Assembly: GCA_001790645.1 (NCBI GenBank) | Contig: MGDB01000107.1 | Coordinates: 1 to 12,787 of the forward strand | DNA from: Candidatus Schekmanbacteria bacterium GWA2_38_11 | Lineage (GTDB): Bacteria > Schekmanbacteria > GWA2-38-11 | Direction: 5' to 3' | Length of the DNA: 12,787 nucleotides | Part shown: positions 1 through 12,691 of the stretch, piece after piece | Numbering within the stretch: position 1 is the first letter of the stretch | Layout: the number at the start of each line of letters is the position of its first letter | The notes under the pieces: model-generated | Seen by the model: only the letters and a program-made list of their open reading frames with translations | Told to the model about the DNA's origin: nothing | Databases searched by the model: none | Made by a program: the position numbers and the translations under genes

Positions 1-513
1 AGACAAAAACCATGTGAATATATTGGTTGTCCCGCTGCCATCAGAACGGTGGGCAACAATTATTGGTAAATCAGGCATTTTCAAGCCCGGATTAATTTCT
101 CTAATTCTTTTGTCACTCCAGTTAATAATCTTTTTAAGAAAAATATCAGCAACCATCTCAGAGGTAAGTTTCAACCCTGACGGGATTCCGGGAATATTGT
201 AAATCATTGCCACTGCACCCGCTACCATTGGAAACTGAATCAAATTATTTTTTTCGAGATCTTCCTTCATTAATGGTGCATCGCTTGCGCCAAAATCAAC
301 TGTGCCTGCCTTTACCTGCTGAATACCGCCTCCACTGCCTATGGATTGGTAATTAATTTTCACTCCTGTAGCTTTCTCATATGTGTAAAACCATTTTGAG
401 TATAATGGATAGGGAAAAGTTGCTCCTGCACCATTCAGGATTTCCCCTGCCCCTGCAATCCAGAAAGGCAAAATCAATACAATTACCAATGTTAAACTTG
501 TAAGTATTTTCAT
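1..513 (-). CDS. pstS: PstS, periplasmic phosphate-binding protein of the Pst ABC importer (3' end cut by the window edge)
   Basis: Translating down from ATG at 513 gives 171 residues with no stop, so the C-terminal part lies left of the window. Residues 1-22 form a signal peptide (hydrophobic core followed by Ala-Gly-Ala). The mature N-terminus has the family signature GAGATFPYPLYSKW (28-41), then SIGSGGG (58-63), DFGASDAP (73-80) and HRSDGSGTT (155-163). These correspond to the phosphate-contacting loops of known PstS proteins: Thr32, Phe33, Ser60, Asp78, Arg156, Asp158, Ser160 and Thr162. The product should capture inorganic phosphate in the periplasm for PstCAB, whose genes would be expected further left but are not visible. 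AAGGAG sits 5 nt before ATG, and the gene has its own Pho-box promoter, separating it from the porin gene upstream. Usual family length is about 270-350 residues, so roughly half is present. Confidence 0.95.
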   Translation of the reverse strand, partial: MKILTSLTLVIVLILPFWIAGAGEILNGAGATFPYPLYSKWFYTYEKATGVKINYQSIGSGGGIQQVKAGTVDFGASDAPLMKEDLEKNNLIQFPMVAGAVAMIYNIPGIPSGLKLTSEMVADIFLKKIINWSDKRIREINPGLKMPDLPIIVAHRSDGSGTTNIFTWFLS

Positions 514-535
514 TTTTTCTCCTTTTATTTCACAT

Positions 536-587
536 ATTATATTTAGCCTGTAATTGGCATGTTAACTCCGTGTTAAATCTATGTTAA
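536..587 (-). promoter_or_regulatory. Pho-box promoter of pstS: three TTAACA repeats at 11-bp period plus TATAAT
   Basis: On the minus strand TTAACA occurs at 587-582, 576-571 and 565-560, exactly 11 bp apart with 5-bp spacers. A perfect TATAAT follows at 541-536, leaving 18 bp from the last repeat, which can also act as the -35 element. Known PhoB and PhoP boxes are direct repeats with 11-bp period, and PhoP boxes resemble TTAACA. The site lies between the porin stop codon and the pstS start, so it serves pstS. Assignment to the PhoB encoded nearby is inference. Confidence 0.82.
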
Positions 588-592
588 ATCTT

Positions 593-1864
593 TTAAAACT
601 TTATCTGGAACTGAACCCTGAAGCGGTTGTCCTGTTTATCATTACCACCTATATCTTGGGCAGTCAGGTAAGAATAATCAGCCTGGACCTTCAGATTGTG
701 CTTTTCAAAGTAATAGTTTAGTCCAAGAGTATGTTCTTTTTTAAGATCCTTAATGTCAGTTTGATCACTGATATTAAAATGCGGGTCAAGGTACCCATAC
801 CTTGCTACTGCTTCGAGCTTTTGAGGGATTATAAAATAACCTGCCTGAGTGTAAAAACCAAAGGACTTGTCATCAGCAAGGCTCTTTCTTGATACTTCAA
901 GATTCCTCCAAAAGTATTCACTTCTGAAAGAGAAGTCGCGCCACTGGAAATCTATATCAGCACCGAGTCCGTTTATATCCACATCTTCTTTTTTATCATC
1001 ATCATTTATGTCAATATCATCTCCGGTAAAATACCAGTTGGCTCCAAGAGAAAGCTTTGGGCTTGCCGGCCTATCAAGAGCAGCTTCCTTTGTCCCTATT
1101 CCCCACTCACCCTGGTTATAGGTTCCAAAGGGATTAAAGGTAATCCTTGCTGCATACATCATTTCATTATCTTTATTCTCTGCATTCTGCCCCTGTCCAT
1201 TAAAGATTCCAATAGCATATTCAAAGAGGTCATTTTGGGTCGTTCCAAAGAGTGATAATCCGATGTCTCTACTCGGTGTGAATTCATCTGATACTTCAGA
1301 ACGATCAACAAATTGCTGCTCTCCAGAAGAAGTTATCTCCTGCCTTCCAAATGGGACTTTATACTGACCAAGTCTGAGAGAAGCATACTTATACTTTGCT
1401 ACATCAATATACCAGTCCTTCATCTCCACATCATCTTTGGCAGCATCAAACTGAATTTTATATTTAAGCCATGGTTCGTATGCATGACCTGTCAAGAAGA
1501 GCCTTGCCCTTTTTATGGTGAAGGTCTGCGAATCATCCCTTTCCTCATCCCTTCCTTCATCCACATTATTGAATGTGTAGCGGACTTGAAGTCTTGCTCC
1601 TAAGGTTAGAGAAAACTTATCATCCTTGGTCTTAAGGTAGAAACCTTTGCCCTTGGCATACCCTACATCAATTTTATCAAGAAAAGTTTGTTTTGCTTCA
1701 ATCTCCTTTTTTGCTTGCTCATACTCTTCATCAGTAATGATTCCCTTTTCCCTTAAGATCCTGATAGATGTTGATTCTTCGGCCTCTGATTCACCTGCTT
1801 TGGCTATTGGAACAAGGTAAATCATCAAAACTATTATACAAAATAGAAAAATAAATTTTTTCAT
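593..1864 (-). CDS. Phosphate-selective porin of the OprO/OprP family, outer-membrane beta-barrel
   Basis: The product has 423 residues. A signal peptide (1-23, cleavage after Ala-Lys-Ala) is followed by an acidic stretch and a short helical segment (33-58, ILREKGIITDEEYEQAKKEI) typical of porins in this family, possibly for trimer contacts or the cell wall. From about residue 70 the chain is a run of alternating beta strands (SLTLGARLQVRYTF, LRLGQYKVPFGRQE, LSLGANWYFTG), ending in FRVQFQIKF with the C-terminal Phe recognised by the BAM machinery. The LGQYKVPFGRQE segment and 'DIGLSLFG' are characteristic of Porin_O_P (PF07396). Family members take up phosphate or polyphosphate under starvation. 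Selectivity here is inferred from the setting between phoBR and pstS; some relatives are annotated only as general porins. AAGGAG lies 11 nt before ATG. No Pho box precedes it, so it is probably transcribed with the small Cys-rich gene 79 bp upstream. Confidence 0.88.
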   Translation of the reverse strand: MKKFIFLFCIIVLMIYLVPIAKAGESEAEESTSIRILREKGIITDEEYEQAKKEIEAKQTFLDKIDVGYAKGKGFYLKTKDDKFSLTLGARLQVRYTFNNVDEGRDEERDDSQTFTIKRARLFLTGHAYEPWLKYKIQFDAAKDDVEMKDWYIDVAKYKYASLRLGQYKVPFGRQEITSSGEQQFVDRSEVSDEFTPSRDIGLSLFGTTQNDLFEYAIGIFNGQGQNAENKDNEMMYAARITFNPFGTYNQGEWGIGTKEAALDRPASPKLSLGANWYFTGDDIDINDDDKKEDVDINGLGADIDFQWRDFSFRSEYFWRNLEVSRKSLADDKSFGFYTQAGYFIIPQKLEAVARYGYLDPHFNISDQTDIKDLKKEHTLGLNYYFEKHNLKVQADYSYLTAQDIGGNDKQDNRFRVQFQIKF

Positions 1865-1899
1865 CTAAAATTTTCTCCTTTAATTTTCATTTTGGTAGC

Positions 1900-1917
1900 C
1901 GCAGGCTTTAGCCTGCG
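1900..1917. repeat. Short perfect palindrome (REP-like hairpin) between the Cys-rich gene and the porin gene
   Basis: CGCAGGCT and AGCCTGCG are separated by two bases, giving an uninterrupted inverted repeat. It is GC-rich inside an AT-rich spacer and lies between two genes that probably share a transcript, so it could protect or partly terminate the mRNA. I infer it belongs to a dispersed repeat family; no second copy of this sequence is in the window. Confidence 0.6.
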
Positions 1918-1943
1918 TATAATTCTCAGAAACTCACTCATCC

Positions 1944-2147
1944 TTAAGCAGCCATTTGAATTTGTCTCTCTCTACCTTTAGATTTTCCTTTAAAATTTGC
2001 CTGAGCTGCCTGGTAAAAAGGACAATTTTTGTGGTTTTCCTTTGAACAGTATCCCTCATAACGGAATTCTACTGGATACAGGGGTTCCTCAAAGATTGAA
2101 TAACATTCAGGGAAACCAAAACTCTCTTTTAAATGTTGACATTTCAT
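1944..2147 (-). CDS. Small Cys-rich protein (67 aa), predicted Pho-regulated, function unknown
   Basis: I do not recognise a characterised family. The protein has four cysteines (Cys3, Cys15, Cys33, Cys42), a nearby histidine (His39) in a CSKENHKNCPFY segment, and a basic tail (KGKSKGRERQ). The spacing C-x11-C-x17-C-x8-C suggests a small metal-binding (zinc) or redox fold, which is inference. There is no signal peptide or membrane segment, so it should be cytoplasmic. It is a real gene on three counts: a near-perfect AAGGAGGTGA ribosome site lies 4 nt before ATG, a promoter with two Pho-box repeats lies upstream, and it opens the probable transcript that continues into the porin. A role as a small regulator or metal-dependent accessory factor in phosphate starvation is possible but unproven. 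Confidence 0.78.
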   Translation of the reverse strand: MKCQHLKESFGFPECYSIFEEPLYPVEFRYEGYCSKENHKNCPFYQAAQANFKGKSKGRERQIQMAA

Positions 2148-2198
2148 TAAATCACCTCCTTTGAAATTATTTTTTTCAGTAGGTAATTTAATAAGGAG

Positions 2199-2238
2199 TT
2201 ATTACAAACGAATTATGAGGATGTTAAAAGGATGTTAA
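2199..2238 (-). promoter_or_regulatory. Pho-box promoter of the Cys-rich protein / porin transcript
   Basis: On the minus strand TTAACA lies at 2238-2233 and again at 2227-2222, 11 bp apart. TAATAA at 2204-2199 follows after 17 bp and is a reasonable -10 box. Repeat sequence and phase are identical to those upstream of pstS. The inferred start of transcription leaves a leader of about 45 nt before the ATG at 2147. Confidence 0.72.
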
Positions 2239-2252
2239 ATTTTTGAAGTCTC

Positions 2253-2400
2253 TCTCTAAAATAAATTCTAAATTCTAATATCTAAATCCTAAACAAATTC
2301 AAAATGCTAATGATCAAAATTCAAAACAATTTGGAACATTTAAATTTTAGGTTTTGATATTGTTTAGAATTTAGGATTTCGTATTTAGAATTTTATAGAG
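2253..2400. repeat. Imperfect ~148-bp inverted repeat (MITE-like) after phoR
   Basis: The left arm (2253-2295, beginning CTCTAAAATAAATTC and ending ATCCTAAACAA) is matched by the reverse complement of the right arm (2360-2400, beginning CTCTATAAAATTC and ending AATCCTAAATTCTAAACAA), with small indels. The AT-rich middle also folds back (TTCAAAA at 2299 region against TTTTGATA). It fills the space between the phoR stop and the next promoter. It may be a non-autonomous mobile element and may also stop phoBR transcription; it has no coding capacity. Confidence 0.65.
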
Positions 2401-2410
2401 TTGAAAACAA

Positions 2411-4195
2411 TTATTTTTTTGGCAGGGTGAAGATAAATTTGCTTCCCTTATTTAGCTCACTTTCAACCCTTACCTTACCACCATGAGCTTCAACGATATG
2501 TTTAACAATGGATAGCCCTAATCCTGTACCACCGAGCTCCCTTGAACGGGCTTTATCAGCTCGATAGAACCGTTCAAAGATCCTGTCTATTTCATTAGAC
2601 GGTATTCCAATACCTGTATCAACAACCCGCACCTCAATATAATCTTTCAGGCTTCCTGCCTCAATCGAGATTTTACCATTTCCAGGTGTATATTTTATTG
2701 CATTATCAATAAGGTTATTAATAGCAAGTTCTATTTTGCTTTTATCCACAAAAACCCATTCGCTTTCTTCTTCTATCTTAAGTTCAAATGAAAGCTTTTT
2801 TCTATTAAGTTCTTCTTTATAAGATGCCAAACAACTTTCAATAAGACTTCTTAGAGAGTTTCTTGATTTTGTCACCCTGTAATCCACAGATTCGATCTTT
2901 GCAAGTTCAAGAAGATCTGAAATCAGTTTGTTCATTCTCTTAGCATGGGAATCTATAATATTTAAAAACCCTGTGAGACTTTCTGAATCATCTTTTGCAC
3001 CATCAATCAGGGCTTCGATATAACCAATAATCAGAGTAAGCGGCGTCTTAAGCTCATGAGATACATTGGCTACAAAATCCTGCCTTACTCTTTCAAGTTT
3101 TTTCATTTTTGTTATGTCATGAAATACAATTACCACTCCTGACGGAAATCCTGCTTCACCTTTAAAAAAGACCGATTGAAGCCTCATTATTTTTTCATCA
3201 GGCTGCCACAGTTTTACTATCTCACTTCTCCCCTCTTTGTTTTTAAATGTATCGTTTATTAAGTTTGCTATCTCGTGATGTCTGATAATTTCAATATACG
3301 GTTTGCCTAATGACTTTGGTCCTTCTAATCTTAACATCTTCTCTAAGGCCGGATTTGCTAAGATAATATTACCATTTTCTTCTATGGCTATTACTCCTTC
3401 TACCATGCTTGAAAGAACAGCTTGAACCTGAGATTTCTCCTTATTTATTTCTCTTAACTTTATGCCAAGCTTCTCTGCCATCTCATTGAATATATCACCT
3501 AACTCCTGCAGTTCGTCTCCGGTCTTAATTTTTATTCTTTGGGTTAAATCTCCTTGAGAAATTTTTTTTGCGACCTTCATCATCTGACTTAATGGAGAGG
3601 TTATTGTCCTTGAAAAAACGATACTTAAGACTAAAACCACGACGAAAACAGATACTAAGCTGTAGAATATTATTAGTCTTAGGCTCTTTATCTGGAAATC
3701 CAAATCTCTCAGGGACTTGGCTATCCTTGCAAATCCTATTATTTCATTTTTATCCTTTATTGTCATAGCTAAATAAGCCATATCCATTTTTATGGTATCA
3801 CTGTAGCGGATACTTGTGCCAATCCCTTCTCTTGTTGCTTCTTTTATCTCAGGCCTGTTAATATGGTTTTCCATATTGAGAAGATCTTTCCCGCTTTCAT
3901 AAGAATCTCCCAAGACAATCCCTTTTTTATCAATTATGGTAATTCTTGAATCTGTCTCAAGTCCGAGGGAGTCTACTAAAGGATCGATTTCTTCAGGTAT
4001 TGGATTTGTGCTTAAGGGCCTTGAAAATATTTCAGCTAAGAGATAGACCTCTGCCTGCATAGCATTTTTTGTCTGGCTGGCAAAGTTTCCCTTGACTGAA
4101 AAAAGGATGAGTTCACCTGTTATTGAGATAAAAATCAAAAGAATTAAAGAAAAGATGAGAAAAAGCTTGAATCTTAATTTAAAGTGAAGAAACAT
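2411..4195 (-). CDS. phoR: PhoR-type membrane sensor histidine kinase of the phosphate regulon
   Basis: The protein has 594 residues with a complete layout: TM1 (about 10-32), an extracytoplasmic sensor region (33-170), TM2 (172-194), HAMP (195-250), PAS (253-360), HisKA with phospho-acceptor His380 in [14 protein letters not shown], and HATPase_c with N box (Asn493/Asn494, Asn498), DTGIGIP (526-532), F box FERFYRAD (540-547) and GGTGLGLSI (555-563). It should autophosphorylate His380 and transfer to Asp53 of the adjacent PhoB. The large periplasmic domain makes it resemble Gram-positive or thermophile PhoR/WalK-like kinases more than E. coli PhoR, which has almost no periplasmic loop. It follows phoB after 87 bp. 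No clear ribosome site precedes ATG at 4195 and no in-frame earlier start is evident, so the start is somewhat uncertain. The phosphate assignment rests on phoB, pstS and the porin nearby. Confidence 0.9.
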
Positions 4196-4230
4196 AATAA
4201 TATTGTTATTTGTGCTTTGGATTTATTTTG

Positions 4231-4250
4231 CCTGCCTGACGGTAGGCAGG
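4231..4250. repeat. Short GC-rich hairpin between phoB and phoR
   Basis: CCTGCCT (4231-4237) and AGGCAGG (4244-4250) form a 7-bp stem with a 6-nt loop. It sits in the 87-bp gap of the presumed phoBR operon. No T-run follows on the minus strand, so it is not a typical terminator. It is probably another short dispersed palindrome that could tune phoR expression. Confidence 0.55.
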
Positions 4251-4282
4251 AATTTTGAACTTTGGTATTTGAATTTTCGACG

Positions 4283-4969
4283 CTAAGGGTTTTCTTTGAA
4301 TTTATATCCCAGTTGCTTAACTGTAACGATATATTTGGCTATGTCTGGAAGTTTTTCCCTAAGTCGCCTTATATGTACATCAACAGTCCTTGTAGTCCCG
4401 TAGTAATCATAACCCCATATATCATTCAAAAGCTTGTCCCTTGTCAGCACTCTTTCCTTGTTGCGCAAAAGTGCTTCAAGAAGCCAGAACTCTTTTGAAG
4501 TAAGGTTTACATCTTTGTCATTAATCCTTACTTCATGACTTTCTAAATCAAGTATGAGGTTTTTAAACTGATAAACCTTTCTGCCTTCTTCTTTTTTTTC
4601 AGTTCTTCTGAAAATTGCTTTTATCCTTGCAACAAGTTCTCTTGGACTGAATGGCTTTGTAATATAATCATCAGCTCCAAGTTCAAGGCCTATAATTCTG
4701 TCAGTTTCATCTCCTTTGGCAGTGAGCATTATTATAGGAATAGATGTACTTTTACTATCAGCCTTTATTCTTTTGCATACCTCAATGCCGTCAATTTTGG
4801 GAAGCATCAGGTCAAGAATAACCATATCAGGACTCTTCTCTTTCACAAGCTCCAGCCCTTTTGCTCCGTCAGAGGCTGAAATGGTTTTAAAACCATCCTT
4901 CTCAAGGTAATGTGCTATCAGCTCAACAATGTCCTTCTCATCCTCAATTATCAGAATTTTTTTTGACAT
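4283..4969 (-). CDS. phoB: PhoB-type response regulator (receiver plus winged-helix DNA-binding domain)
   Basis: At 228 residues it has the usual OmpR/PhoB length. The receiver domain (about 3-118) carries the acidic pair Glu9/Asp10, phospho-acceptor Asp53 in VILDLMLP, Thr83 and Lys105 in ITKPF. The C-terminal Trans_reg_C domain (about 130-226) has the LTSKEFWLLEALLRN entry helix, the RDKLLNDIWGYDYYGTTRTVDVHIRRLREKL recognition region (split here as 174-205) and the final wing YIVTVKQLGYKF. Phosphorylated dimers would bind the 11-bp-period TTAACA repeats found upstream of pstS and of the Cys-rich gene. It is the first gene of phoB-phoR and has a promoter with Pho-box-like repeats of its own, suggesting autoregulation. 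The TAG stop lies 87 bp before phoR. Confidence 0.93.
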   Translation of the reverse strand: MSKKILIIEDEKDIVELIAHYLEKDGFKTISASDGAKGLELVKEKSPDMVILDLMLPKIDGIEVCKRIKADSKSTSIPIIMLTAKGDETDRIIGLELGADDYITKPFSPRELVARIKAIFRRTEKKEEGRKVYQFKNLILDLESHEVRINDKDVNLTSKEFWLLEALLRNKERVLTRDKLLNDIWGYDYYGTTRTVDVHIRRLREKLPDIAKYIVTVKQLGYKFKENP

Positions 4970-5006
4970 TTAATTATCTCTTCAATTTTTTTTAATTTTT
5001 AAATAG

Positions 5007-5035
5007 ATTGTACAAGATAGTCAAGAAATGTTTAA
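5007..5035 (-). promoter_or_regulatory. Probable phoB promoter with degenerate Pho-box repeats
   Basis: On the minus strand TTAAAC (5035-5030) is followed 11 bp later by TTGACT (5024-5019), a degenerate pair in the same phase as the other Pho boxes. TACAAT (5012-5007) lies 17 bp after TTAAAC and is a good -10 box. The leader to ATG at 4969 would be about 30 nt. It is weaker than the other two sites, so confidence is moderate. Confidence 0.5.
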
Positions 5036-5193
5036 TGAGGTCTCTGAAAAAATACATGAGACTTCTGATTATAGTGACTAATTAAAGATTACAGAGATCA
5101 AAAGATATTGAGAATATTACAAAATCGTTGTAATCATTTTTCCAATCTGTGTAATCAAGAGAGCAAAAAAGGACTTTTTCAGAGCTCTCTTAA
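5032..5193. repeat. Nested inverted-repeat element flanked by TTAA (MITE-like)
   Basis: Three inverted-repeat pairs are nested around one centre: CTCTGAAAAA (5042-5051) with TTTTTCAGAG (5175-5184), GATTACAGAGAT (5087-5098) with ATCTGTGTAATC (5145-5156, 10 of 12 matching), and ATTACAA (5116-5122) with TTGTAAT (5128-5134). TTAA occurs just outside at 5032-5035 and 5190-5193. It accounts for most of the gene-free stretch between phoB and the cassette region and has no ORF of note. A non-autonomous transposon remnant is the likeliest reading. Confidence 0.5.
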
Positions 5194-5200
5194 TATTTGC

Positions 5201-5257
5201 TTGACATCCCTATAGCAACATATAAGATTTTTGACAATTGTAGAATAAGCATAAAAA
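5201..5257 (+). promoter_or_regulatory. Two candidate sigma-70 promoters reading into the cassette array
   Basis: TTGACA at 5201-5206 is followed after 16 bp by TAAGAT (5223-5228). A second TTGACA at 5231-5236 has the poorer -10 candidate TAAAAA 15 bp on (5252-5257). Both read rightwards into cassette 1 and could drive the cassette genes in the absence of a visible integron promoter. Such matches are common in AT-rich DNA, so this is tentative. Confidence 0.4.
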
Positions 5258-5265
5258 TAAATGGT

Positions 5266-5871
5266 ATGTTTCATATGAAGCTCCTGCCTGAAGTGATGCG
5301 CCATAGGACCCTCGCCATTGTTCTATGGACAGCGTTTATCGTCAGCGCGGTTCTGATGGTGAAGTCAAGCAGCAATGAGTTGATCCCGTTGCTTCAGGGT
5401 ACTGCGACAGAACCCATCTTTTCGCAATTCAAAACTGGCAATCAGATAATCTTTGACATCTCGGTCGGTATCATTGTTAGTCTACTTATCTACGTTCTTG
5501 TGGTATGGCTTCCCGAGCGATTCAAGCAAAATCGAATCCGGAGAAATCTTCAGCATCAGTACAGCTCGTTCAAGGAAGAGTGTATAAAGGTTTTTCTTTG
5601 GGCATTACACCAAACCTACGATCCTGAGTTAATAAATCGCCTCAAAAACCGTAATGAGTTTAGGAGGTTCATCAAAGAAAAAGTTTCGCTAGATCGGGAG
5701 CGGTGGCACGCGGTTCTCAATGGACTCGACGAGTATATGGTTAAGAACCTCATTGTCGATCTTGAAATCCTCAAGGCGGAGATTCAATTCACTCTGAGCG
5801 CCATAGAACGTCGAAAAGCAAGAAGTGTTCGCCTTCCTGAAGCGATGAGAATAAGTGGTTTATCGAGTTAA
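5266..5871 (+). CDS. Cassette 1 gene: two-TM membrane protein of unknown function, frameshifted at its 3' end
   Basis: I do not recognise the family. From ATG at 5266 (ATG at 5275 is equally possible; neither has a clear ribosome site) the frame gives 201 residues. TM helices are near 15-32 (TLAIVLWTAFIVSAVLMV) and 61-82 (IIFDISVGIIVSLLIYVLVVWL) with a loop of about 28 residues between. A charged, helical cytoplasmic part then includes RFKQNRIRRNLQHQY and LRDRERWH-like segments. Reading further upstream to a TTG at 5197 enters AT-rich non-cassette DNA and is unlikely. Codon use is richer in G and C than in the flanking genes, consistent with acquisition. The stop at 5869-5871 appears to result from a frameshift, because the +1 frame stays open for 43 further codons up to the attC site. 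Full length would be about 245 residues. Confidence 0.6.
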   Translation: MFHMKLLPEVMRHRTLAIVLWTAFIVSAVLMVKSSSNELIPLLQGTATEPIFSQFKTGNQIIFDISVGIIVSLLIYVLVVWLPERFKQNRIRRNLQHQYSSFKEECIKVFLWALHQTYDPELINRLKNRNEFRRFIKEKVSLDRERWHAVLNGLDEYMVKNLIVDLEILKAEIQFTLSAIERRKARSVRLPEAMRISGLSS

Positions 5872-6001
5872 GAACTGGTCAGAACAAAGTGAAGAGCTGA
5901 AACAGCTTTCTCAGTTCATGTGGTCTGTTCACGCTGGATGGAGCGTAATCAAAGACTATCTTGAGAAATACGTAATAGCAGAGATGATTGAATCAATATG
6001 A
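5852..6001 (+). pseudogene. Out-of-frame C-terminal tail of the cassette 1 protein
   Basis: In the +1 frame relative to the upstream ORF, a coherent sequence runs from about 5855 (VYRVKNWSEQSEELKQLSQF, then MWSVHAGWSVIKDYLEKY and VIAEMIESI) to TGA at 5999-6001. That is two bases before the attC R'' arm, the normal place for a cassette stop codon. A one-base insertion or two-base deletion between about 5852 and 5870 would explain the break. It may be a true mutation or a sequencing error. Confidence 0.55.
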
Positions 6002-6002
6002 A

Positions 6003-6092
6003 ACATAACAAGTCCATCAACCGGACGCCCAAAAAGCTACGCTTTTTGGGTTTGCGCCCTTCGGGCGCCGCCGGTTATGTCCAACGTTAGCC
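6003..6092 (+). other. attC recombination site 1 (integron cassette site, ~90 bp)
   Basis: R'' is ACATAAC (6003-6009) and R' is GTTAGCC (6086-6092), with the expected cut between G6086 and T6087. L'' CATCAACCGG (6015-6024) pairs with L' CCGGTTATG (6071-6079) over 9 bp, leaving a single extrahelical C, a hallmark of attC folding. The central variable part holds two strong hairpins: CCCAAAAAGC/GCTTTTTGGG (6028-6050) and GCGCCC/GGGCGC (6054-6068). The site directly follows the cassette 1 stop codon and precedes the cassette 2 start by 15 bp. Confidence 0.88.
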
Positions 6093-6107
6093 GAAAACAA
6101 GGGTGTC

Positions 6108-6662
6108 ATGGGTTTATTTGGAAGAAAGAAAATTTATATAAAACGGGAGGACTTTCCGGTTGTCATTAATAACATCGCACGATCATTAGAAGCATTAAGA
6201 GAAGAATATATCTTTGGCTCGTTATCCCAATTAAAAAGAGAAGGAGTGGATGTTTCCAATATATCAAGAGACATCAGCCCGGGCAGTCAGTTGGAAGATG
6301 CTCTAAAAGGGTTTCAGTTGACGTCGATGATGGGAATTACCTGGGATTATATTAGGAGTATAGAAGATAAATTAGCATTTGATCTCGCATTAAGTAAGCA
6401 TATGAACGCCGAGAAAGAATCGAGAGCGTGGGATTATCGGGAAAGATACATCGATTGCCAGGGAGATATGGATGCCCTTGCAAAAACATTATCCTTTGAT
6501 GTGTATAAATCCATCGGGTCACCTATACCGAGGGACGAATTTCTAATTCAATTTCAAGGTGGTGCATATGTCCTAATTGGGTTATGCCAAGCTGCTACAT
6601 ACTCAGCATGTGGAGATAGCAAAATGGAACGAAAAATAAGGGGAACAATGCGCTTCACATAA
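6108..6662 (+). CDS. Cassette 2 gene: uncharacterised 184-residue protein
   Basis: I do not recognise a domain. The sequence begins MGLFGRKKIYIKREDF, continues as mostly charged and amphipathic helices (NNIARSLEALREEYI, RSIEDKLAFDLALSKHMNAE), and has a more hydrophobic segment near 147-166 (FLIQFQGGAYVLIGLCQAAT) that is too polar for a confident membrane helix. No signal peptide is seen, so a cytoplasmic protein is likely. ATG lies 16 bp after the attC1 R' core with only a weak AAGGG ahead, and the TAA at 6660-6662 is 17 bp before attC2, so the ORF fills the cassette as in typical integron cassettes. Cassette ORFs are commonly without known homologues; phage defence, toxin or signalling roles cannot be distinguished here. 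Confidence 0.78.
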   Translation: MGLFGRKKIYIKREDFPVVINNIARSLEALREEYIFGSLSQLKREGVDVSNISRDISPGSQLEDALKGFQLTSMMGITWDYIRSIEDKLAFDLALSKHMNAEKESRAWDYRERYIDCQGDMDALAKTLSFDVYKSIGSPIPRDEFLIQFQGGAYVLIGLCQAATYSACGDSKMERKIRGTMRFT

Positions 6663-6679
6663 ATGAAAGGCACTTTTTA

Positions 6680-6743
6680 GGCTAACAAACGGCTCCACCG
6701 GATCACCGGAAAATTTGGCTCCCGGTGAGCCGAGACGTTCGTT
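6680..6743 (+). other. attC recombination site 2 (~64 bp)
   Basis: R'' is GGCTAAC (6680-6686), the exact reverse complement of GTTAGCC that opens cassette 2 at 6086. L'' GGCTCCACCGG (6691-6701) pairs with L' CCGGTGAGCC (6722-6731) over 10 bp with one extrahelical C, as in attC1. With the same 7-nt spacing after GGTGAG as seen in attC1 after GGTTAT, R' is GTTCGTT (6737-6743); GTTATAA at 6741-6747 is an alternative. The R' half is degenerate, as often seen at the last site of an array. The element defines cassette 2 as about 651 bp (6087-6737). Confidence 0.85.
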
Positions 6744-6766
6744 ATAATATGAAAAGAAGTAAAGGA

Positions 6767-6786
6767 CCCCTCAGCAAGCTGAGGGG
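6767..6786. repeat. Perfect 9-bp-stem palindrome followed by CATTCTGG
   Basis: CCCCTCAGC and GCTGAGGGG are separated by AA, and CATTCTGG follows at 6787-6794. A second hairpin with the same trailing ATTCTGG lies about 100 bp downstream, suggesting a pair of REP-like units. It could act as a terminator stem for the cassette transcript, but no T-run follows. Confidence 0.6.
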
Positions 6787-6868
6787 CATTCTGGGATTAA
6801 GATATTTGAACTTTCAAAACTCATAATGTTAAACCAAAATATACGACTAACAAAGTCTTTTTAAATTG

Positions 6869-6913
6869 ATGCCATTCATCCCTCCAGCAAGGAGGGTATT
6901 CTGGCATATTTTT
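6869..6913 (+). terminator. Two-part hairpin with T-rich tail, possible terminator of the cassette transcript
   Basis: ATGCCA (6869-6874) pairs with TGGCAT (6902-6907) and CCCTCC (6880-6885) with GGAGGG (6891-6896), with a symmetric 5/5 internal loop and the apical loop AGCAA. ATTTTTAT follows at once. The trailing ATTCTGG is shared with the hairpin at 6767. It may be a Rho-independent terminator, a REP-like unit, or both. Confidence 0.45.
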
Positions 6914-6999
6914 ATAAATCTGAATCCTCAGAATCTTAAATCCCCTCTCTGTCCATGTTCTAAGATTAGCGGCCTGAAAAAACAGCAAAAAAGAAAAAA

Positions 7000-7031
7000 A
7001 TACTTGGAATAAATCTTTTTTTAAGTATGAT
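7000..7031 (+). promoter_or_regulatory. Candidate promoter of the phosphoesterase gene, with an inverted repeat
   Basis: TTGGAA (7004-7009), a 16-bp spacer and TATGAT (7026-7031) form a plausible sigma-70 promoter about 30 nt before the start codon. ATACTT (7000-7005) and AAGTAT (7023-7028) are inverted repeats overlapping both boxes and could be an operator. Evidence is only sequence similarity. Confidence 0.4.
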
Positions 7032-7064
7032 AAATCTTAGTAAAACCTTAAAGGAGGAAAGGGA

Positions 7065-7550
7065 TTGAAATTAGGTCTAATTGCTGACACCCACGATAAT
7101 ATTCCAAATATAAGAAAGGCGATAAAAATATTTAATGAAACGGGGATCAGGTTAATTGCCCATGCAGGAGATTTCATAGCACCCTTTTCTGCAAAGGAAT
7201 TTAAAGCCTTTAAAGGTAAGATTATTTCCGTGTTTGGAAATTGCGACGGCGAAAAGAAAGGGCTAAAAGAGGCTTTTAAAGGAATTGGTGAAATCTATGA
7301 GGAAGGATTTTCTTTCAGAGCAGGCAGGAGACATATTTTTCTAACTCATGTCCCTGATAACCTCGAATCCGACTCTATGATTAAAGAGTATGACCTTTTG
7401 ATTTTTGGCCACACCCATAAGGCTGAAGTTAAAAAAATTGGAGGTTCAGTTATTGTTAACCCCGGCGAAGCCGGTGGATGGCTCTACGGGAAGGCAACAA
7501 TTGCTATTGCTGACCTTGAAAGTTTAAGCGTTAAGATTATAAGTTTATAA
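7065..7550 (+). CDS. YfcE/MJ0936-type metallophosphoesterase
   Basis: The 161-residue product is a compact calcineurin-like phosphoesterase with all metal-ligand motifs: Asp8 and His10 in ADTHDN, Asp36 in HAGDFI, Asn59 in FGNCD, His95 in LTHV, and His116/His118 in GHTH. Members of the YfcE/MJ0936 group hydrolyse phosphodiesters with Mn or Ni bound; the physiological substrate is generally unknown, so none is assigned. The start is TTG at 7065, supported by AAGGAGG at 7051-7057 with 7-nt spacing and by alignment of the first beta strand (KLGLIADTH) with the usual family N-terminus. It is a single gene on the plus strand, convergent with the flavin-reductase gene 33 bp downstream. That gap holds only a 12-bp AT palindrome (7550-7561). 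Confidence 0.9.
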   Translation: MKLGLIADTHDNIPNIRKAIKIFNETGIRLIAHAGDFIAPFSAKEFKAFKGKIISVFGNCDGEKKGLKEAFKGIGEIYEEGFSFRAGRRHIFLTHVPDNLESDSMIKEYDLLIFGHTHKAEVKKIGGSVIVNPGEAGGWLYGKATIAIADLESLSVKIISL

Positions 7551-7583
7551 TAAAATTTTATCCTATTCATACATTCTCTTTGT

Positions 7584-8198
7584 TTATTTTTTTTCAAAAT
7601 CCGGTTTAATATCAGGAGAAAAAACTTTATATTCATCTATTATCCCAAATGTACTCCCGCCACCTTTAGAAGGGCCAAAGTATACCGGAAGGTTCATTTC
7701 CCTTATCCTTTCATCCCTGCTTAGATTTAAAAATTTTTCATCAATTGATATGTCAACAATATCCGCAACAAAAGTTATCTGGGTTTTACTTGGTCTAATC
7801 GTTTGGGCAACGCGACATTCGAGATGCTCTCTGCATTCTTTTATCCGGGGAGGCTTGACCTTATTTGATGGAATAACTGAGAGCTTTGCATATTCAAGCT
7901 CATTTACTCCTTGGGGATAAAACCTTCCTGTTTCTGCTACCTCCCTGCAAAGTTCAGCACCGGGATAATTTACCACAAATTCTCCTGTAGCTTCTATATT
8001 ATGCGGAGTATGCCAATGACTGTTACAAGATAATAGTATCTGTGGAGTTTCAGGTGATGCACAAAAAGGGATAACAAGAGAATAGGGAGCAGCATTAATT
8101 CTCCCTTCTTTATCCACAGTAGTTATTATGGTAACAGGAAATGGTAAAACAATCTGGTCAAGGTGCCACAATAATTCAATATCTATGCTTTTTTTCAT
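7584..8198 (-). CDS. Flavin-reductase-like FMN-binding split-barrel protein
   Basis: The 204-residue product matches the flavin_reductase-like domain (DIM6/NTAB family): a first strand PVTIITTVDKEGRINAAPYSL (21-41, split by a turn at Asp29-Gly32), LLSCNSHWHTPHNI (55-68), which would contact FMN phosphate, and GEFVVNYPG (72-80). The C-terminal part has the strand TFVADIVDISID (142-153) and LPVYFGPSKGGGSTFGII (170-187). Relatives bind FMN and are flavin reductases or small flavin-dependent oxidoreductases; the substrate here cannot be told. Its ATG overlaps the stop of the upstream exonuclease fragment (ATGA), which indicates translational coupling and a shared transcript even though the upstream gene looks broken. 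Confidence is high for the fold and low for the reaction. Confidence 0.85.
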   Translation of the reverse strand: MKKSIDIELLWHLDQIVLPFPVTIITTVDKEGRINAAPYSLVIPFCASPETPQILLSCNSHWHTPHNIEATGEFVVNYPGAELCREVAETGRFYPQGVNELEYAKLSVIPSNKVKPPRIKECREHLECRVAQTIRPSKTQITFVADIVDISIDEKFLNLSRDERIREMNLPVYFGPSKGGGSTFGIIDEYKVFSPDIKPDFEKK

Positions 8199-8554
8199 AA
8201 CTTTTCCCTTTTAATAAATAGTTGTTCTATAGTCTCAACACCTTTTTTAGAAAAATCGTCTACGAAAATATCAAATATCTTCTTTGTAACCTCAGCGTCT
8301 GCCATTGACCTGTGAAGGTTTAATGCCCGAATCCCAAAACAACGTGCCAAGTTTTCAAGACTATTGCTTGGAAAATGGTAGTACCTTTTTGCTATGGCCA
8401 AAGTATCTATAACTAAATTTTCTGGAATGGAAATCCCCAAGTCTACAAACTGAGTCGAAAGGAAACTCATATCAAAAGATGCGTTGTGAGCAACAATTAT
8501 GGAATCCTCAATAAAATTTATAACATTCCGGGCAATGTCCCGAAAGCAAGGCAT
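8195..8554 (-). CDS. DnaQ-like 3'-5' exonuclease, C-terminal fragment (after frameshift)
   Basis: This frame has 119 codons from ATG at 8554 and continues the exonuclease fold begun in 8508-8792. It carries the Exo II motif HNASFD (Asp28 of this frame) and the Exo III motif HRSMADAE (His81 and Asp86), so two of the four DEDDh catalytic residues plus the general-base histidine are here. The internal ATG has only a weak ribosome site (GAG 9-10 nt upstream), so independent translation would have to rely on termination-reinitiation from the N-terminal frame. The TGA overlaps the ATG of the flavin-reductase gene. Without the N-terminal Asp-x-Glu motif it should not be an active exonuclease alone. 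A two-base deletion in the parental gene or a sequencing error would account for the split. Confidence 0.75.
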   Translation of the reverse strand: MPCFRDIARNVINFIEDSIIVAHNASFDMSFLSTQFVDLGISIPENLVIDTLAIAKRYYHFPSNSLENLARCFGIRALNLHRSMADAEVTKKIFDIFVDDFSKKGVETIEQLFIKREKL

Positions 8555-8792
8555 TTTTCACCATCTCATCAGTTATATTATTTACTGCCTGAGCACCCTG
8601 TGAAATCTGTCTCTCCGGATTTACTAAAGTATGGAAAGAATCAATTATTTTTTTCCCTCTTCTTTTTAAAATCGCTATCTCGCAAATCCTGTCTCCAAAG
8701 GATGGCGACAGACCTGTTGTCTCGACATCTATAAAAGAAAATACTGCCTCCTCAATTAACGTATTGCCAAATTCCCCTAAGACTTTGTTCAT
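8508..8792 (-). CDS. DnaQ-like 3'-5' exonuclease, N-terminal fragment (frameshifted)
   Basis: This frame gives 94 residues, of which about the first 81 are genuine: FIDVETTGLSP (20-30) with catalytic Asp22 and Glu24 (Exo I), ICEIAILK, the HTLVNPER strand, and the ITDEMVKNA segment typical of DNA polymerase III epsilon-like proteins. The last 13 residues (LLSGHCPECYKFY) have no family character and are out of frame. The sequence resumes as PCFRDIARN in the overlapping frame, so the parent was about 200 residues long. The break lies near 8547-8558. DEDDh exonucleases of this size, with no polymerase domain, act in proofreading, repair or RNA/DNA trimming. A weak AGGA 14 nt upstream is the only ribosome-site candidate for ATG 8792. 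Confidence 0.78.
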   Translation of the reverse strand: MNKVLGEFGNTLIEEAVFSFIDVETTGLSPSFGDRICEIAILKRRGKKIIDSFHTLVNPERQISQGAQAVNNITDEMVKNALLSGHCPECYKFY

Positions 8793-8875
8793 TTTAATTC
8801 TCTATCCTGCTCCATTTTTACTATCTTCCTAAACTATTCCAGACCTATTCATCATAATTCAATTTGTCAATAAAA

Positions 8876-8960
8876 TTCTTGATAAAGCCCTTAGCTTTAA
8901 GCTATAAGCTTTAAGACGTCTTTACCTTAGCCCAATAAGTGTGATTAACAAATTCATCAC
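8876..8960. promoter_or_regulatory. hemF-like gene upstream region with short repeats
   Basis: The 189-bp spacer between the divergent exonuclease and HemF-like genes contains the direct repeat AGCTTTAAG (8901 region, twice within about 25 bp) and an inverted repeat GTGAT-N10-ATCAC (8941-8960) close to the HemF-like start. The latter could be an operator; its 10-nt spacer does not match the FNR or CRP consensus. No clear -35/-10 pair stands out. Confidence 0.3.
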
Positions 8961-8981
8961 TATTAAATAAAGGACACTGAG

Positions 8982-9782
8982 ATGGATATATTAAAAGAAA
9001 TTGATGATTTTTTTGCTTCCATGAAAAAAAAGGCTTTGGATGCCTTTATAAAAATTGAAGGTAAGGATTTGGTTGAGCAAAGAGTCTGGGACAGCCCATC
9101 AGGGAGAACCGTGCTTAATATTACAAGAGGAAAGGTTTTTGAAAAAGTAAGCCTGTGCCTCACAAACAAAAGGAAAAAGATTCCTGGGTCAGTAAACCTT
9201 CCGGATATAATGAAAGACTTGGAGAAAAGTAAAGATACTGAAGTCATAATGAAAGTTTTTGAAATATGCAGCCACATGGCAAACCCAAAAGTTCCGGTAG
9301 GAAACATAAGCCTCCGTTACCGTAAGGCAAAAGAGGGAAGGTTTGCAGGCGGGACGGATTTATCACCGTATTTTCCATTTAAAGAAGATGTAGAGTTCTT
9401 CAGGAAAGAGATGCAGAACCTGTGCAAAAGACACGGAAAACAATACGAACCAATGAGGGAACAATTACAAAAAAATTTCTGGCTGAAGTATAGGAATGAA
9501 CCAAGGGGCGGATGCAACGGAATCGGTTTTGATGTTTCTGATGAAGAATTCCCATTTATCAAAGACCTCGCAGAAACATTCTTAAAGACTTATATTTCAA
9601 TAGTTGAGAAACGCAAAGATGAACCTTTCACTGAAGCAGAACGGGAAAAACAACTCTATAGAAGAGGCAGGTGGGTAGAGTTTAATCTGGTTGAAGACGA
9701 GGGGTTCAGGTTTGGTCTTGAAATGGGAATTGACCCGGAGATTATGGTTCTCCAAACCTTACCACCGCTTGTAAGGTTTTAA
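8982..9782 (+). CDS. hemF: HemF-family coproporphyrinogen III oxidase homologue, divergent
   Basis: The 266-residue product aligns with oxygen-dependent coproporphyrinogen III oxidase across its length. It has GKVFEKVS (50-57), NPKVP (101-105), GGTDLSPYFPFKED (123-136, with Asp126), LKYRNEPRGG (168-177) and the C-terminal signature RRGRWVEFNLV (227-237) to LPPLVRF (260-266). Classical HemF oxidatively decarboxylates two propionates of coproporphyrinogen III using O2. Compared from memory with E. coli HemF, His98 is kept (equivalent of His96), but the positions equivalent to His106, His145 and His175 appear to be Asn108, Phe/Arg (139-141) and Tyr170. The roughly 25-30 residue tail after VRW/VRF is also absent. 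Arg112 and Asp126 are kept. AAAGGA lies 7 nt before ATG, and it stands alone on the plus strand. It may have an altered function, so the name reflects family and not proven activity. Confidence 0.82.
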   Translation: MDILKEIDDFFASMKKKALDAFIKIEGKDLVEQRVWDSPSGRTVLNITRGKVFEKVSLCLTNKRKKIPGSVNLPDIMKDLEKSKDTEVIMKVFEICSHMANPKVPVGNISLRYRKAKEGRFAGGTDLSPYFPFKEDVEFFRKEMQNLCKRHGKQYEPMREQLQKNFWLKYRNEPRGGCNGIGFDVSDEEFPFIKDLAETFLKTYISIVEKRKDEPFTEAEREKQLYRRGRWVEFNLVEDEGFRFGLEMGIDPEIMVLQTLPPLVRF

Positions 9783-9992
9783 ACTCAAAAATCAAAGATA
9801 AAAAATCAAAAATTTCAGTTTTATTAAAAAAACAAAGATTATGAATATTTTCTACTTCAATTGGAATGCTTCATTAAATATCATTCTCTCATAAGCGGGA
9901 ATCCAGTAAAATTAACGTTCTCAGGATTCCTGCTGGAGTTTACCCCGTACTTGATACGGGGCAGGAATGACAAAGAGAAAGTGGAAGATTTA
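9783..9992. repeat. Repeat debris between convergent hemF-like and usp genes, including a cruciform
   Basis: The stretch starts with A/T-rich runs of the type AAAATCAAA and then contains a two-step inverted repeat: ATTCCTG (9926-9932) with CAGGAAT (9962-9968), enclosing CCCCGTA (9943-9949) with TACGGGG (9955-9961). Outside it, TTCTC (9919) and GAGAA (9975) extend the symmetry. A fragment GCGGGAATCC (9895-9904) resembles the arm of a related element. I see no gene. The hairpin could serve as a terminator for either convergent transcript. Confidence 0.55.
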
Positions 9993-10895
9993 TCAATCTC
10001 CTTTAACTGTCAGCACCGGACATTCGGCAAGCCTGACTACTCTTTCTGCAACACTTCCCATGAGAAGGTGAGAAAATCCTGTTCGACCGTGGGTACCCAT
10101 TACAATCAAATCAGCCTTAATTGATTTCCCTTTTTCAAGGATATCCTGAAAAGGTTCACCAATCTGAATATTATATGTTATATCTTTGTAACCTTCTCCT
10201 TTTTCCCTTATTAATGATTCTAATCTATCCTTAACTTCTTCCTCCATCTTTATAATTACTCCTTCACTTGAAAAATATTCACCATAATAATAGGGATAAA
10301 AAGATATGGGCTGCAATACATATAATATATGTATCCTGGCATTGAACAATCTGGCCAGTTTAACTGAAAGTTTGAATCCCTTTTCAGAATGCTCTGAAAA
10401 GTCTACAGGAACAAGGATATTCTTGACGTCAAACTTATCAAAGTTAATCTCATTACCAAGCTTGGTAGTTAGAACAGGGCACGGAGAAGTTCTTAAAACC
10501 TTTTCTGCTATGCTCCCTATAAATGCATGTTTCAAAATCTTCCTTGCATGAGTTGCCATAACTATCAAATCAGCTTCAATCTTTTTAGCTGATTCAACAA
10601 TTTCAGAGGCAGCATAGCCTTTTGTAATTAAAGTATCAATCTCGCTTATCCCTCTGGCTTTTTTAATGTAAACTTCTCCCATTTCCTTTTCTATCTTGCC
10701 CTTGATCTCTTCAAAACTCATTTTTTGATGGATATCAGAAGCATATAAAGGATCAATTATTTGAGGGTCGGAAATTATGTGGGAGAGATAGATTTTTGAG
10801 TTTTGTTTTTTAGCTAACGATAAGGCAAGATTAAAAGCATTGGTACATCCGTGGCAAAAATCAACCGGAACAAGAAGTTTCCACATTTTCTCCAT
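9993..10895 (-). CDS. Tandem-domain universal stress protein (UspA family)
   Basis: The 300-residue protein has two Usp domains, 5-145 and 157-299, each starting with a ILVPVDF-like strand (LLVPVDFCHG, NILVPVDFSEHS). The second has the full nucleotide-binding pattern G-2x-G-9x-G-S (Gly267, Gly270, Gly280, Ser281) followed by VAERVVRLAECPVLTVK. In the first the two leading glycines are Ala114 and Ala117 (MATHARK), with only Gly127-Ser128 kept, so only domain 2 is likely to bind ATP. Family members are cytoplasmic stress or energy-state proteins. ATG 10895 is preferred over ATG 10886 because AAAGGA lies 8 nt before it. It is transcribed alone, converging on the hemF-like gene. Confidence 0.92.
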   Translation of the reverse strand: MEKMWKLLVPVDFCHGCTNAFNLALSLAKKQNSKIYLSHIISDPQIIDPLYASDIHQKMSFEEIKGKIEKEMGEVYIKKARGISEIDTLITKGYAASEIVESAKKIEADLIVMATHARKILKHAFIGSIAEKVLRTSPCPVLTTKLGNEINFDKFDVKNILVPVDFSEHSEKGFKLSVKLARLFNARIHILYVLQPISFYPYYYGEYFSSEGVIIKMEEEVKDRLESLIREKGEGYKDITYNIQIGEPFQDILEKGKSIKADLIVMGTHGRTGFSHLLMGSVAERVVRLAECPVLTVKGD

Positions 10896-10936
10896 ATATT
10901 CTTTCCTTTAAAAATCTGGTTTCTAAAACTTCTGCT

Positions 10937-11005
10937 GGTAATTTATTTTTTTAAATTACCAATTTCTTATGTTATAGAATTTATTAATAAAACCCCTATT
11001 GTCAA
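10937..11005 (-). promoter_or_regulatory. usp upstream region: -35-like TTGACA and a palindromic operator-like hairpin
   Basis: On the minus strand TTGACA (11005-11000) is followed after 16 bp by TAAATT (10983-10978), a weak -10. Between this and the start codon lies a 9-bp inverted repeat GGTAATTTA/TAAATTACC (10937-10945 and 10952-10960) with a 6-nt loop, which may be an operator or leader hairpin. Evidence is limited to pattern. Confidence 0.35.
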
Positions 11006-11238
11006 GGTAAGAATTTCTCTGAACTTTAGCTAATAGGATATAACGGTTAAGGATTAAAGTTGGCAAAGGGTTTGACTTTCTTATTTTAAGCAAGGATAGG
11101 CGGGACATTCCTGTCCAGCTAAAATAAAATGGCGGAGTTAGAAAACCCTATCTATCGGCTGATTTATATAAAGTAAGACTGCTTCGCTCGCAATGACTCC
11201 AACATAGACCCTTTTCCAACAGCCTGTAAGAATTTTTG
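11006..11238. other. Gene-free spacer with repeat fragments between usp and the HD phosphohydrolase
   Basis: No ORF with coding character is visible. The stretch holds a small inverted repeat GGACA-TTCC-TGTCC (11103-11116), a segment GACTGCTTCGCTCGCAATGAC (11168-11188) that looks like a piece of a dispersed repeat, and CTTTTCCAACAGCCTG (11210-11225), which looks like the edge of another repeat copy. I read it as decayed repetitive DNA. Confidence 0.45.
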
Positions 11239-12678
11239 TTATACGTTTGTTTTTATACCATCTTTTTTGGGTTTCAATCCCTTTTCCGCAGCTTCGCACA
11301 GTTCTTTGTCAAAACTATGGTCTAAAGCAAAAACTCTGTAGTGAATAATCTTTGACGGTATATATTCAAAAAGCTCTTTTAGCATCTCTGTGGAAACTTT
11401 TTTTGTTATAGGGTCAAAGATGTAAATCTGCCTCTGCTCCATGGAAACAGGATTTTCAGGTCTTGGGTCCTGGACAGCAGTGTCTACTAAGAACTTATGT
11501 TCTTTAAACTTTGTTGGAAGATTAGCTCTTATCCTTTTTTCTAAATCTTCATCTTTAATTACTGTTCTGCCAACCTCAAGTTCTTTTATTGAAATGGTTT
11601 TATCATAAACCATTTTCCATTTTGGCTGCCTCTGGAGGATCATATCCCATTCCTTTGAAAGCTTTTTCTTATCTTTCTCTCCAGAATGTTTCCACAGCAT
11701 CACCTCTTGCGTTAAGGACCAGTCAGAAAGTTCCAGATATTCCTTAAGATTTTCTATAGGGTTATAGGGAAAAATTTTTCCGATTGTGTCATTAAAAATT
11801 TCTTTGAGGTGCATATCAATCGCCCTTGTTGTTCTATGATAATATACATTAGAATAAAGGTATAGCCTGGCGTTTAAAAACATTGTAAGTGCTGAAGTTC
11901 CTGATTTGTGAAGAGTCAGTCCTTTTTCTGTATAAAAAGTATAATAAATCAGCCTGTCAATATCCACAGGTCCGATAGCAACACCACACATATAGGAATC
12001 CCTCAAAACATAATCCATATTATCAACCGTATAGATCCCATTAAATAAAGGAAGAAGCAGTTGAAGCCATTTGGGATAATAATTGGTAGTATTAACTTCA
12101 GTTTTTTTAATGAGGAATGCCACATATTCAGGGTTTAGTCTTTCATTTTTTCTAAAAGAACCACCCGGGCTTCGCCTTATCTGTTTGATTATTCTGCCAA
12201 GTTCCTTTATAATTATTGCCTGGCCTATATCTTCATGCGTAATTCCAAATTGATCCAGAAAATTCTCATCAAAGAAATGTCCAAAGGGACCGTGACCAAC
12301 ATCATGCAGGAGGGCTGTGACTCTAAGAAGTTCCTCGATAAAATTTTCTGACGGGCAATTTTTAGCAATTTTTTTAAGGGTTGGATATAAATGTTTTGCA
12401 AATCTACCCGCAACATGCATTGCTCCTATTGAATGCTGGAAGCGGCTGTGCTCAGCAGAGGGATAAACCCACTTGGAACTCTGCAGTTGACATATCTGCC
12501 TTAATCTTTGAATCCATGGAGAATCAATAAGATCTTTTTCAGCTTTTTCTCCAGGAGTAACCGGAATTGTAAAGGCTATATATTGATGGATCGGGTCCGC
12601 AAAGAGGGCCATTCCATCATATAATAAATTCAGAGGATCTCCTTTCAGTATTTTCTCTTTTCCAATCTTCACACTCAC
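11239..12678 (-). CDS. HD-domain phosphohydrolase (COG1078/SAMHD1-like dNTPase superfamily)
   Basis: The 479-residue protein carries the H...HD...D metal site: RFQHSIGAMHVAG (His82), LLHDVGHGPFGHFFD (His125, Asp126, plus His130 and His134) and YTVDNMDYVLRD (Asp219 as the last ligand). The spacing and surrounding residues match COG1078 and SAMHD1-like proteins, which hydrolyse dNTPs to deoxynucleosides and triphosphate or act on related nucleotides; the exact substrate is not known. The catalytic core spans about 25-300, and the C-terminal 180 residues are charged and helical, with no recognised domain. The start is GTG at 12678, because a TAG stop precedes it directly in frame; no clear ribosome site is seen, and GTG 12674 or ATG at codon 23 are alternatives. 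Translation probably depends on the gene ending 13 bp upstream, implying an operon. Confidence 0.88.
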   Translation of the reverse strand: MSVKIGKEKILKGDPLNLLYDGMALFADPIHQYIAFTIPVTPGEKAEKDLIDSPWIQRLRQICQLQSSKWVYPSAEHSRFQHSIGAMHVAGRFAKHLYPTLKKIAKNCPSENFIEELLRVTALLHDVGHGPFGHFFDENFLDQFGITHEDIGQAIIIKELGRIIKQIRRSPGGSFRKNERLNPEYVAFLIKKTEVNTTNYYPKWLQLLLPLFNGIYTVDNMDYVLRDSYMCGVAIGPVDIDRLIYYTFYTEKGLTLHKSGTSALTMFLNARLYLYSNVYYHRTTRAIDMHLKEIFNDTIGKIFPYNPIENLKEYLELSDWSLTQEVMLWKHSGEKDKKKLSKEWDMILQRQPKWKMVYDKTISIKELEVGRTVIKDEDLEKRIRANLPTKFKEHKFLVDTAVQDPRPENPVSMEQRQIYIFDPITKKVSTEMLKELFEYIPSKIIHYRVFALDHSFDKELCEAAEKGLKPKKDGIKTNV

Positions 12679-12691
12679 CTAAAATATTTTT

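Follow-up and report, generated by a model that had tools for sequence, protein, structure and literature searches.

How did two gene cassettes come to stand in a stretch of DNA that holds no integrase, and what lies at their left end? The window analysed here, 12,787 nt at its full length (bases 1-12787 of the 46,560-bp contig C107), belongs to G000, a 2.1-Mb genome in 158 contigs that is 70% complete, and was compared with three other genomes of the phylum (G001, G002, and G003, making a phylum sample of four) and with two from outside it (G231 and G232). The cassettes occupy the intergenic region between phoB and a phosphoesterase gene (Table 1). No IntI match was found within the window, in agreement with the view of the first-pass annotation that no integrase gene stands beside the cassettes; with two attC sites and no intI nearby, the locus falls within the definition of a CALIN (at least two attC), and it is not a complete integron, in which a functional intI would adjoin attI. 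An Rfam search of the window gave no match, and no empty site was seen by comparison with G001, where synteny stops at phoB. On either side of the locus, 5036-5207 and 6757-6918 resemble other G000 contigs, and farther along, at 8195-8792, a DnaQ-like exonuclease, recognised by eye, is divided between two overlapping frames.

Table 1. Features of the cassette locus in window coordinates
Feature	Position	Strand	Description
attI+Pc-like module	5195-5263	+	promoter-like boxes and 20-bp motif, ends at junction G; R3 42.9 bits (match 5195-5265; this copy is itself one of the 14 R3 seeds)
-35-like box, TTGACA	5201-5206	+	63 nt before junction
-10-like box, TAAGAT	5223-5228	+	weak; 16-nt spacer, read from sequence
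20-bp motif, AATAAGCATAAAAATAAATG	5244-5263	+	attI core-like; adjoins cassette 1
Cassette 1	5264-6086	+	bounded by 20-bp motif and attC1 R'
Cassette 1 opening, GGTATGT	5263-5269		6/7 against predicted GTTATGT
Cassette 1 ORF	5266-5871	+	201 aa, MFHMK..., shortened
attC1	6003-6092	+	R'' ACATAAC 6003-6009, R' GTTAGCC 6086-6092; 36.5 bits (R1), 33.2 bits (R2)
Cassette 2	6087-6737	+	opening and R'' exactly complementary
Cassette 2 ORF	6108-6662	+	184 aa, all-helical model, no known family
attC2	6680-6743	+	R'' GGCTAAC 6680-6686, R' GTTCGTT 6737-6743; 13.9 bits (R1), 8.5 bits (R2)

Both attC structures stand where the first-pass annotation had placed them. The attC1 arms, CAT(C)AACCGG and CCGGTTATG, form 9 pairs with one extra base, within the 9-10 bp it gave for the two sites; the attC2 stem exceeds that range, with 11 pairs and one extra base. 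Folding of the bottom-strand DNA gave z-scores of -4.4 for attC1 and -3.0 for attC2, the best attC2 fold departing from the canonical attC register. An alternative attC2 R' at 6741 fitted the stem equally well and was set aside, 6737 being favoured by the attC alignment and by a similar attC in G002. Loose structural rules matched 22 times in 511,480 shuffled bases (both strands) and also at window position 2829 on the minus strand, and a second loose scan gave 0.77 matches per shuffled window (one strand) with an extra window match at 7339, so that such rules are insufficient. Strict rules, set after the sites had been seen, returned 2 loci in the window and 3 loci in 300 shuffled windows, none of which held two, with 0 matches across 15 control loci (155,010 bases).

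We also scored the sites with covariance models. Of 141 genomes in the order to which a Geobacter MAG discussed below belongs, 57 have IntI above the cut-off, and we took the regions beside ten of those genes, four of them short owing to contig ends. Model R1, built from six attC sites sharing a single geometry in integrase-carrying genomes (loci L102 and L098) and containing no window sequence, recognised attC1 at E 2.3e-7; attC2 was weak (E 0.098), the next window match reaching 11.0 bits. Under the broader model R2, attC2 came out at E 1.2 and was outscored by a chance site at 9.2 bits. The covariance check suggested by the annotation thus succeeded for attC1 and gave a weak result for attC2. 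Because these model scores are weak, the case for attC2 is made by its structure, by the exact complementarity of opening and R'', and by its gene family.

That complementarity, claimed by the first-pass annotation, is complete: the opening of cassette 2 (GTTAGCC) pairs with the R'' of its attC (GGCTAAC) at 7/7 positions. A family search with the cassette 2 protein gave 53 proteins including itself, with four genome loci. At one, in a Geobacter MAG (L046), the homolog has the opening GTTAGCC, the R'' GGCTAAC, and attC on both sides; at a second, in Desulforhabdus sp. TSK, the opening GTTAGCCGAAAA is identical to that in the window, with no attC after it; at the remaining two (L045 and L047) no clear cassette boundary was seen by eye. 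Recurrence of the cassette elsewhere with precise boundaries, which the annotation had proposed looking for, therefore holds at one of four loci, with the opening alone at another. The protein has no match in Pfam, NCBIfam, or PADLOC, and its all-helical structure model (pLDDT 94.1) has no PDB match at E under 0.001; no relatives were found in plasmids or viral contigs. A reading without cassettes, in which the hairpins are ordinary terminators behind chromosomal genes, could appeal to attC2, which taken alone is weak by model, but has to contend with the E value of attC1, the strict-rule control, and the cassette 2 homolog lying between attC sites elsewhere, and we regard it as exceedingly improbable. 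The two cassettes of the window are genuine.

Cassette 1 opens one base off the sequence predicted from its R'', just where GC content changes from 0.322 (4751-5250) to 0.440 (5251-5750), as the first-pass annotation had described. Its gene is broken: the C-terminal part of the family falls into a different frame, which is interrupted by in-frame stops (5791-6002), and this part is present in all 15 homologs other than P0054, 12 of which are 240-247 aa long. The N-termini of two of these 15, MDVMFH and MNVMFH, are compatible with the GTTATGTTT opening and support the left boundary at 5263. P0054, 98% identical to the cassette 1 protein, is truncated at the identical place; as it may derive from the window genome itself or from one very close to it, this argues only mildly against a sequencing error. 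For cassette 1, Pfam gave no match above cut-off, and for its homolog P0055 (structure model pLDDT 79) neither NCBIfam nor PADLOC gave any. Among plasmids the family has a single distant match (26%), and among viral contigs one (43%), where R1 sees no attC up to E 1.

The first-pass annotation saw no attI and considered that the cassettes might have entered a secondary site behind host promoters. Neither point is supported: at the left end, 5195-5265 match a conserved module that is found again at cassette junctions and that, in G231, separates a complete intI from the first cassette. The pattern AATAAGYATAAAAAN{0,3}AATG, covering the 20-bp motif, occurs at exactly 2 places in G000, the cassette junctions of the window and of contig C66, and once each in G001 and G002; read backwards, it occurs at none. 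The bases that follow these four exact sites are TT, except in the window (GT). A motif query that included TT and allowed up to 3 mismatches found 15 sites (4 in G000, 6 in G001, 5 in G002, and 0 in G003), compared with 1, 2, 0, and 1 when read backwards. At 13 of the 15, a TTGACA box (at least 5/6) stands 61-66 nt before the junction, the search pattern having contained no promoter; among dinucleotide shuffles this happened in 1229 of 30,000, and seven other offset windows gave 0-1 of 15. Of the two exceptions, G002:C15:28492 was excluded from the model described next and G001:C23 was kept. In the window the motif ends in ATG at the junction (5261-5263), and a short leader ORF could continue from there into the cassette.

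From 14 such sites we built a sequence-only model, R3, and ran it on 116 genomes, finding 22 strong copies (E<1e-4) in five genomes, 13 of them seeds and 9 new. Seven are in G000 (C103, C107, which is the window, C7, C66, C108, C152, and C134), six in G001 (C18, C19, C24, C32, C21, and C10), and five in G002 (C9, C2, C15, C14, and C16); outside the phylum there are three in G232 (C238, C28, and C107) and one in G231 (C64). Weak matches carry no meaning, since 72 of the 116 genomes have one at E<=0.5. On 30 Geobacterales intI loci R3 gave a single match, at E 0.6, so the module is neither a general promoter nor a general attI. Copies are up to 94% alike over 74-96 bp. In G001 the resemblance among copies begins only at the -35 box (C18 and C19, 93% over 74 bp), with similarity starting at the module edge in C18, C19, C24, and C10, and two G232 copies are alike over about 140 bp; the left edge of the module is therefore not uniform. 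At 4136-7170 of L183 (G002:C3), three weaker matches follow in series 1-2 kb apart, each ahead of a gene.

Reading 1.9-4.5 kb downstream for most copies, and less at contig ends, we recognised attC beyond the module at 7 of the 22: the window, C66, and C103 in G000, G001:C19, G232:C238 (40.2 bits), G232:C107 (by structure scan only), and G231:C64. C134 could not be judged, its contig ending there, and none was recognised downstream of the five strong G002 copies. Opening and R'' agree at 7/7 positions in C103 (attC 26.6 bits) and G001:C19 (24.8 bits) and at 6/7 in C66 (41.3 bits); in G001:C18 and C24 an exact R'' stands close to the gene end, with no hairpin. Junctions depart from what is expected of cassette openings at C108, C152, C134, C16, C21, C2, and G232:C28, as they do in the GGT opening of the window and the C66 opening one base off its R''. 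Five of ten downstream genes have Pfam matches above cut-off (ParE-like toxin, PLD, AbiV, HNH, and N6/N4 methyltransferase). The C66 cassette gene has an HNH_2 domain (22.3 bits; cut-off 21). When R1 alone was run over the four phylum genomes (E<=5), it found three attC loci in G000 (C66:20494, attC1, and C76:13460 at 30.1 bits), four weak matches in G001 and two in G002 (E 0.03-3.5), and no attC in G003; the C103 attC was absent from this genome-wide scan and emerged on scanning that locus. R3 leads to seven module loci in G000, and the module offers a way of locating, by sequence, intI-less cassette loci to which attC searches are blind.

The G231 copy points to what the module is. Contig C64 of that genome encodes a full-length integrase on the plus strand (1962-3206, 414 aa, 393.6 bits against an integron integrase cut-off of 265), and the module lies on the minus strand at 1792-1865, divergent from intI and 96 bp from its start. 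Beyond the module follow GTTAGCC, an Mrr-type gene, a HigB-type gene, and an attC-like site (19.1 bits, E 0.027). Because it sits between divergent intI and the first cassette, the G231 module occupies the place of attI, the position by which attI is defined; the window copy has no intI beside it. On the strength of this divergent arrangement, 96 bp from intI and at the attI place, the module is most likely attI plus a cassette promoter. In G232 and G231 a palindromic stretch (L185, L186, and L187; ATAAATATTTAT core in G232) precedes the module, placed between attI and intI in G231, and is possibly an intI operator.

Two other readings of the left end have to be weighed at this point. Insertion at a secondary site (attG) in ordinary chromosomal sequence has in its favour that IntI, in the published accounts as far as consulted, can use genomic sites with little sequence requirement, and that attI-like sites are reported to be frequent across genomes (PMC10127599, consulted in part). 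The left end of the window is conserved, however, with a -35 box at a fixed distance and close copies at other loci, and the same module occupies the attI place in G231, so that we consider attG insertion quite unlikely. A module that is simply the common promoter of short genes, without any relation to integrons, would fit its resemblance to a sigma-70 promoter and the fact that most copies precede genes with no recognisable attC, yet it leaves aside the G|TTRRRY-type openings that the module adjoins, the attC sites beyond seven strong copies, the position beside intI in G231, and the lack of any match at E<1e-4 in 111 of the 116 genomes; we find it very unlikely.

No IntI exceeds the TIGR02249 cut-off in any of the four phylum genomes (the window genome being 70% complete). 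Larger fragments are found at G000:C114 11555-11704 (48 aa, 67% identical to G231 IntI), G001:C25 (72 aa, 67%), and G002:C13 (55 aa, 64%), and G232:C28 has two intI pieces on the cassette side. We searched the divergent strand at 20 strong copies besides G231, G232:C238 having too little upstream DNA, and found short intI pieces on this expected strand at five. IntI N-termini begin 93 bp (G000:C66), 95 bp (G000:C103), and 96 bp (G232:C107) from the module; no shuffle in 100 reached the scores at C66 and G232:C107, and the C103 piece (E 0.007) was masked out of the shuffle test. C-terminal IntI motifs are present in G000:C7 (NGYDIRTIRELL, 11/12 residues, 26-61 bp from the module) and G000:C108 (TKNILGCQEPLDK, 11/13 residues, about 1.4 kb from the module, close to the gene end in G231 at 1338 bp), each reached by 0 of 8 shuffles, a control of 8 shuffles only. 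The pieces are short and singly weak (E 0.004-0.043; 0.12 for G232:C107). At the other 15 tested copies, the window included, no clear piece was seen (G002:C2 and G001:C18 being doubtful), and an N-terminal test at the window module was matched by 92 of 100 shuffles. The search for intI in flanking sequence that the first-pass annotation had recommended thus found nothing beside the window module and, elsewhere in G000, the C114 fragment and shorter pieces by other modules.

Two of the fragments have arrangements of their own. At 9038-9921 of L061 (G001:C25, in a sister genus), a relict integron comprises a C-terminal intI fragment, a short ORF, and an attC, all in one orientation in contrast to the usual divergent order. 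In G002:C13 (L149 5698-5912), a weak attC-like site overlaps with a piece of the intI N-terminus, the arrangement that would be expected had a cassette entered intI itself.

Because the pieces lie at or near the place of intI in G231, at least five copies once carried the gene, and since five of 20 other copies keep such pieces, the window is best seen as one of several scattered whole integrons now without intI. We therefore judge it likely that the locus is the remnant of a small integron, consisting of an attI with a built-in promoter and two cassettes, its intI gone, and that G000 contains at least seven modules of this kind, the window copy included. In this lineage the intI-attI platform would have multiplied, IntI would have joined attC-bearing circles to each attI at G|TT, and the predicted module promoter would have driven cassette expression; intI may then have been lost copy by copy, and fully at the window. 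Alternatively, attI-promoter copies could have spread without intI, with one integrase acting in trans and then decaying. Consistent with this are the 15 tested copies without a clear piece, the mere 225 bp from the phoB start to the window module, and the G001 copies whose similarity starts at the module edge; the five copies that hold pieces at or near the G231 place speak against it, and we think it rather unlikely. A distributed integron, with many attI-promoter sites per chromosome, each with one or a few separately expressed cassettes, one integrase in trans, and no long array, is an arrangement that we offer tentatively, judging it rather improbable.

The remnant of a small integron that we favour has parts in common with known systems. 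CALINs, proposed to be degraded integrons and reported from two attC up (PMC9024848, consulted in part), share with the window its two attC sites, two cassettes, and absence of a nearby intI; they are defined by attC alone, whereas the window has an attI- and promoter-like module that recurs in its genome. Sedentary chromosomal integrons have the standard order seen in G231 (intI, a divergent attI-like module, and cassettes), unlike G000, G001, and G002, with 5-7 strong modules each and only intI fragments found. In Xanthomonas, several intI-less cassette loci per genome are read as past integron activity (PMC12444791); these too lie at several chromosomal places, but they are tied to attC and to conserved positions, and the consulted portions of that report mention no shared attI-promoter module. 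Insertion of cassettes into genomes at attG (Loot et al. 2024, as cited in PMC12901181 and PMC12444791) likewise leaves cassettes outside an intact integron platform, the difference being the conserved attI-like module at the left end of the window. Integrons are usually described, in the sources as consulted, with one attI beside one intI. The parts are thus known; genomes with five to seven attI-promoter copies and a decayed intI were not found described, nor was a publication on multiple dispersed attI sites, in the literature searched, which consisted mostly of journals outside subscription. A genome with at least seven attI-promoter loci, each with a short set of cassettes, could express many cassettes simultaneously and would show a lineage of multiplied integron platforms whose integrases were later lost, and platform multiplication becomes testable in closed genomes.

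Comparing module loci between genomes, we found that G001:C32 and G002:C9 have in common a same-strand gene that by eye resembles HigA (77% over 97 aa; L141 563-956 and L148 1158-1572) and ends 72 bp and 89 bp, respectively, before the module, with different genes behind, which would fit either an ancient locus whose cassettes have been exchanged or a unit that travelled as a whole. An adjacent gene pair downstream is common to G001:C24 and G000:C103 (75-79%, in opposite orientation) and another to G001:C23 and G002:C2 (71-79%, at differing distances), and G000:C108 and G001:C18 have a common upstream gene pair (49-53%, in opposite orientation); other module loci have single genes in common. 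The sequence after attC is also common to G000:C76 and G001:C25:29037: in L114, at the end of C76, which stops near attC, and in L112 it is near-identical across both genera, resembling a shared array end.
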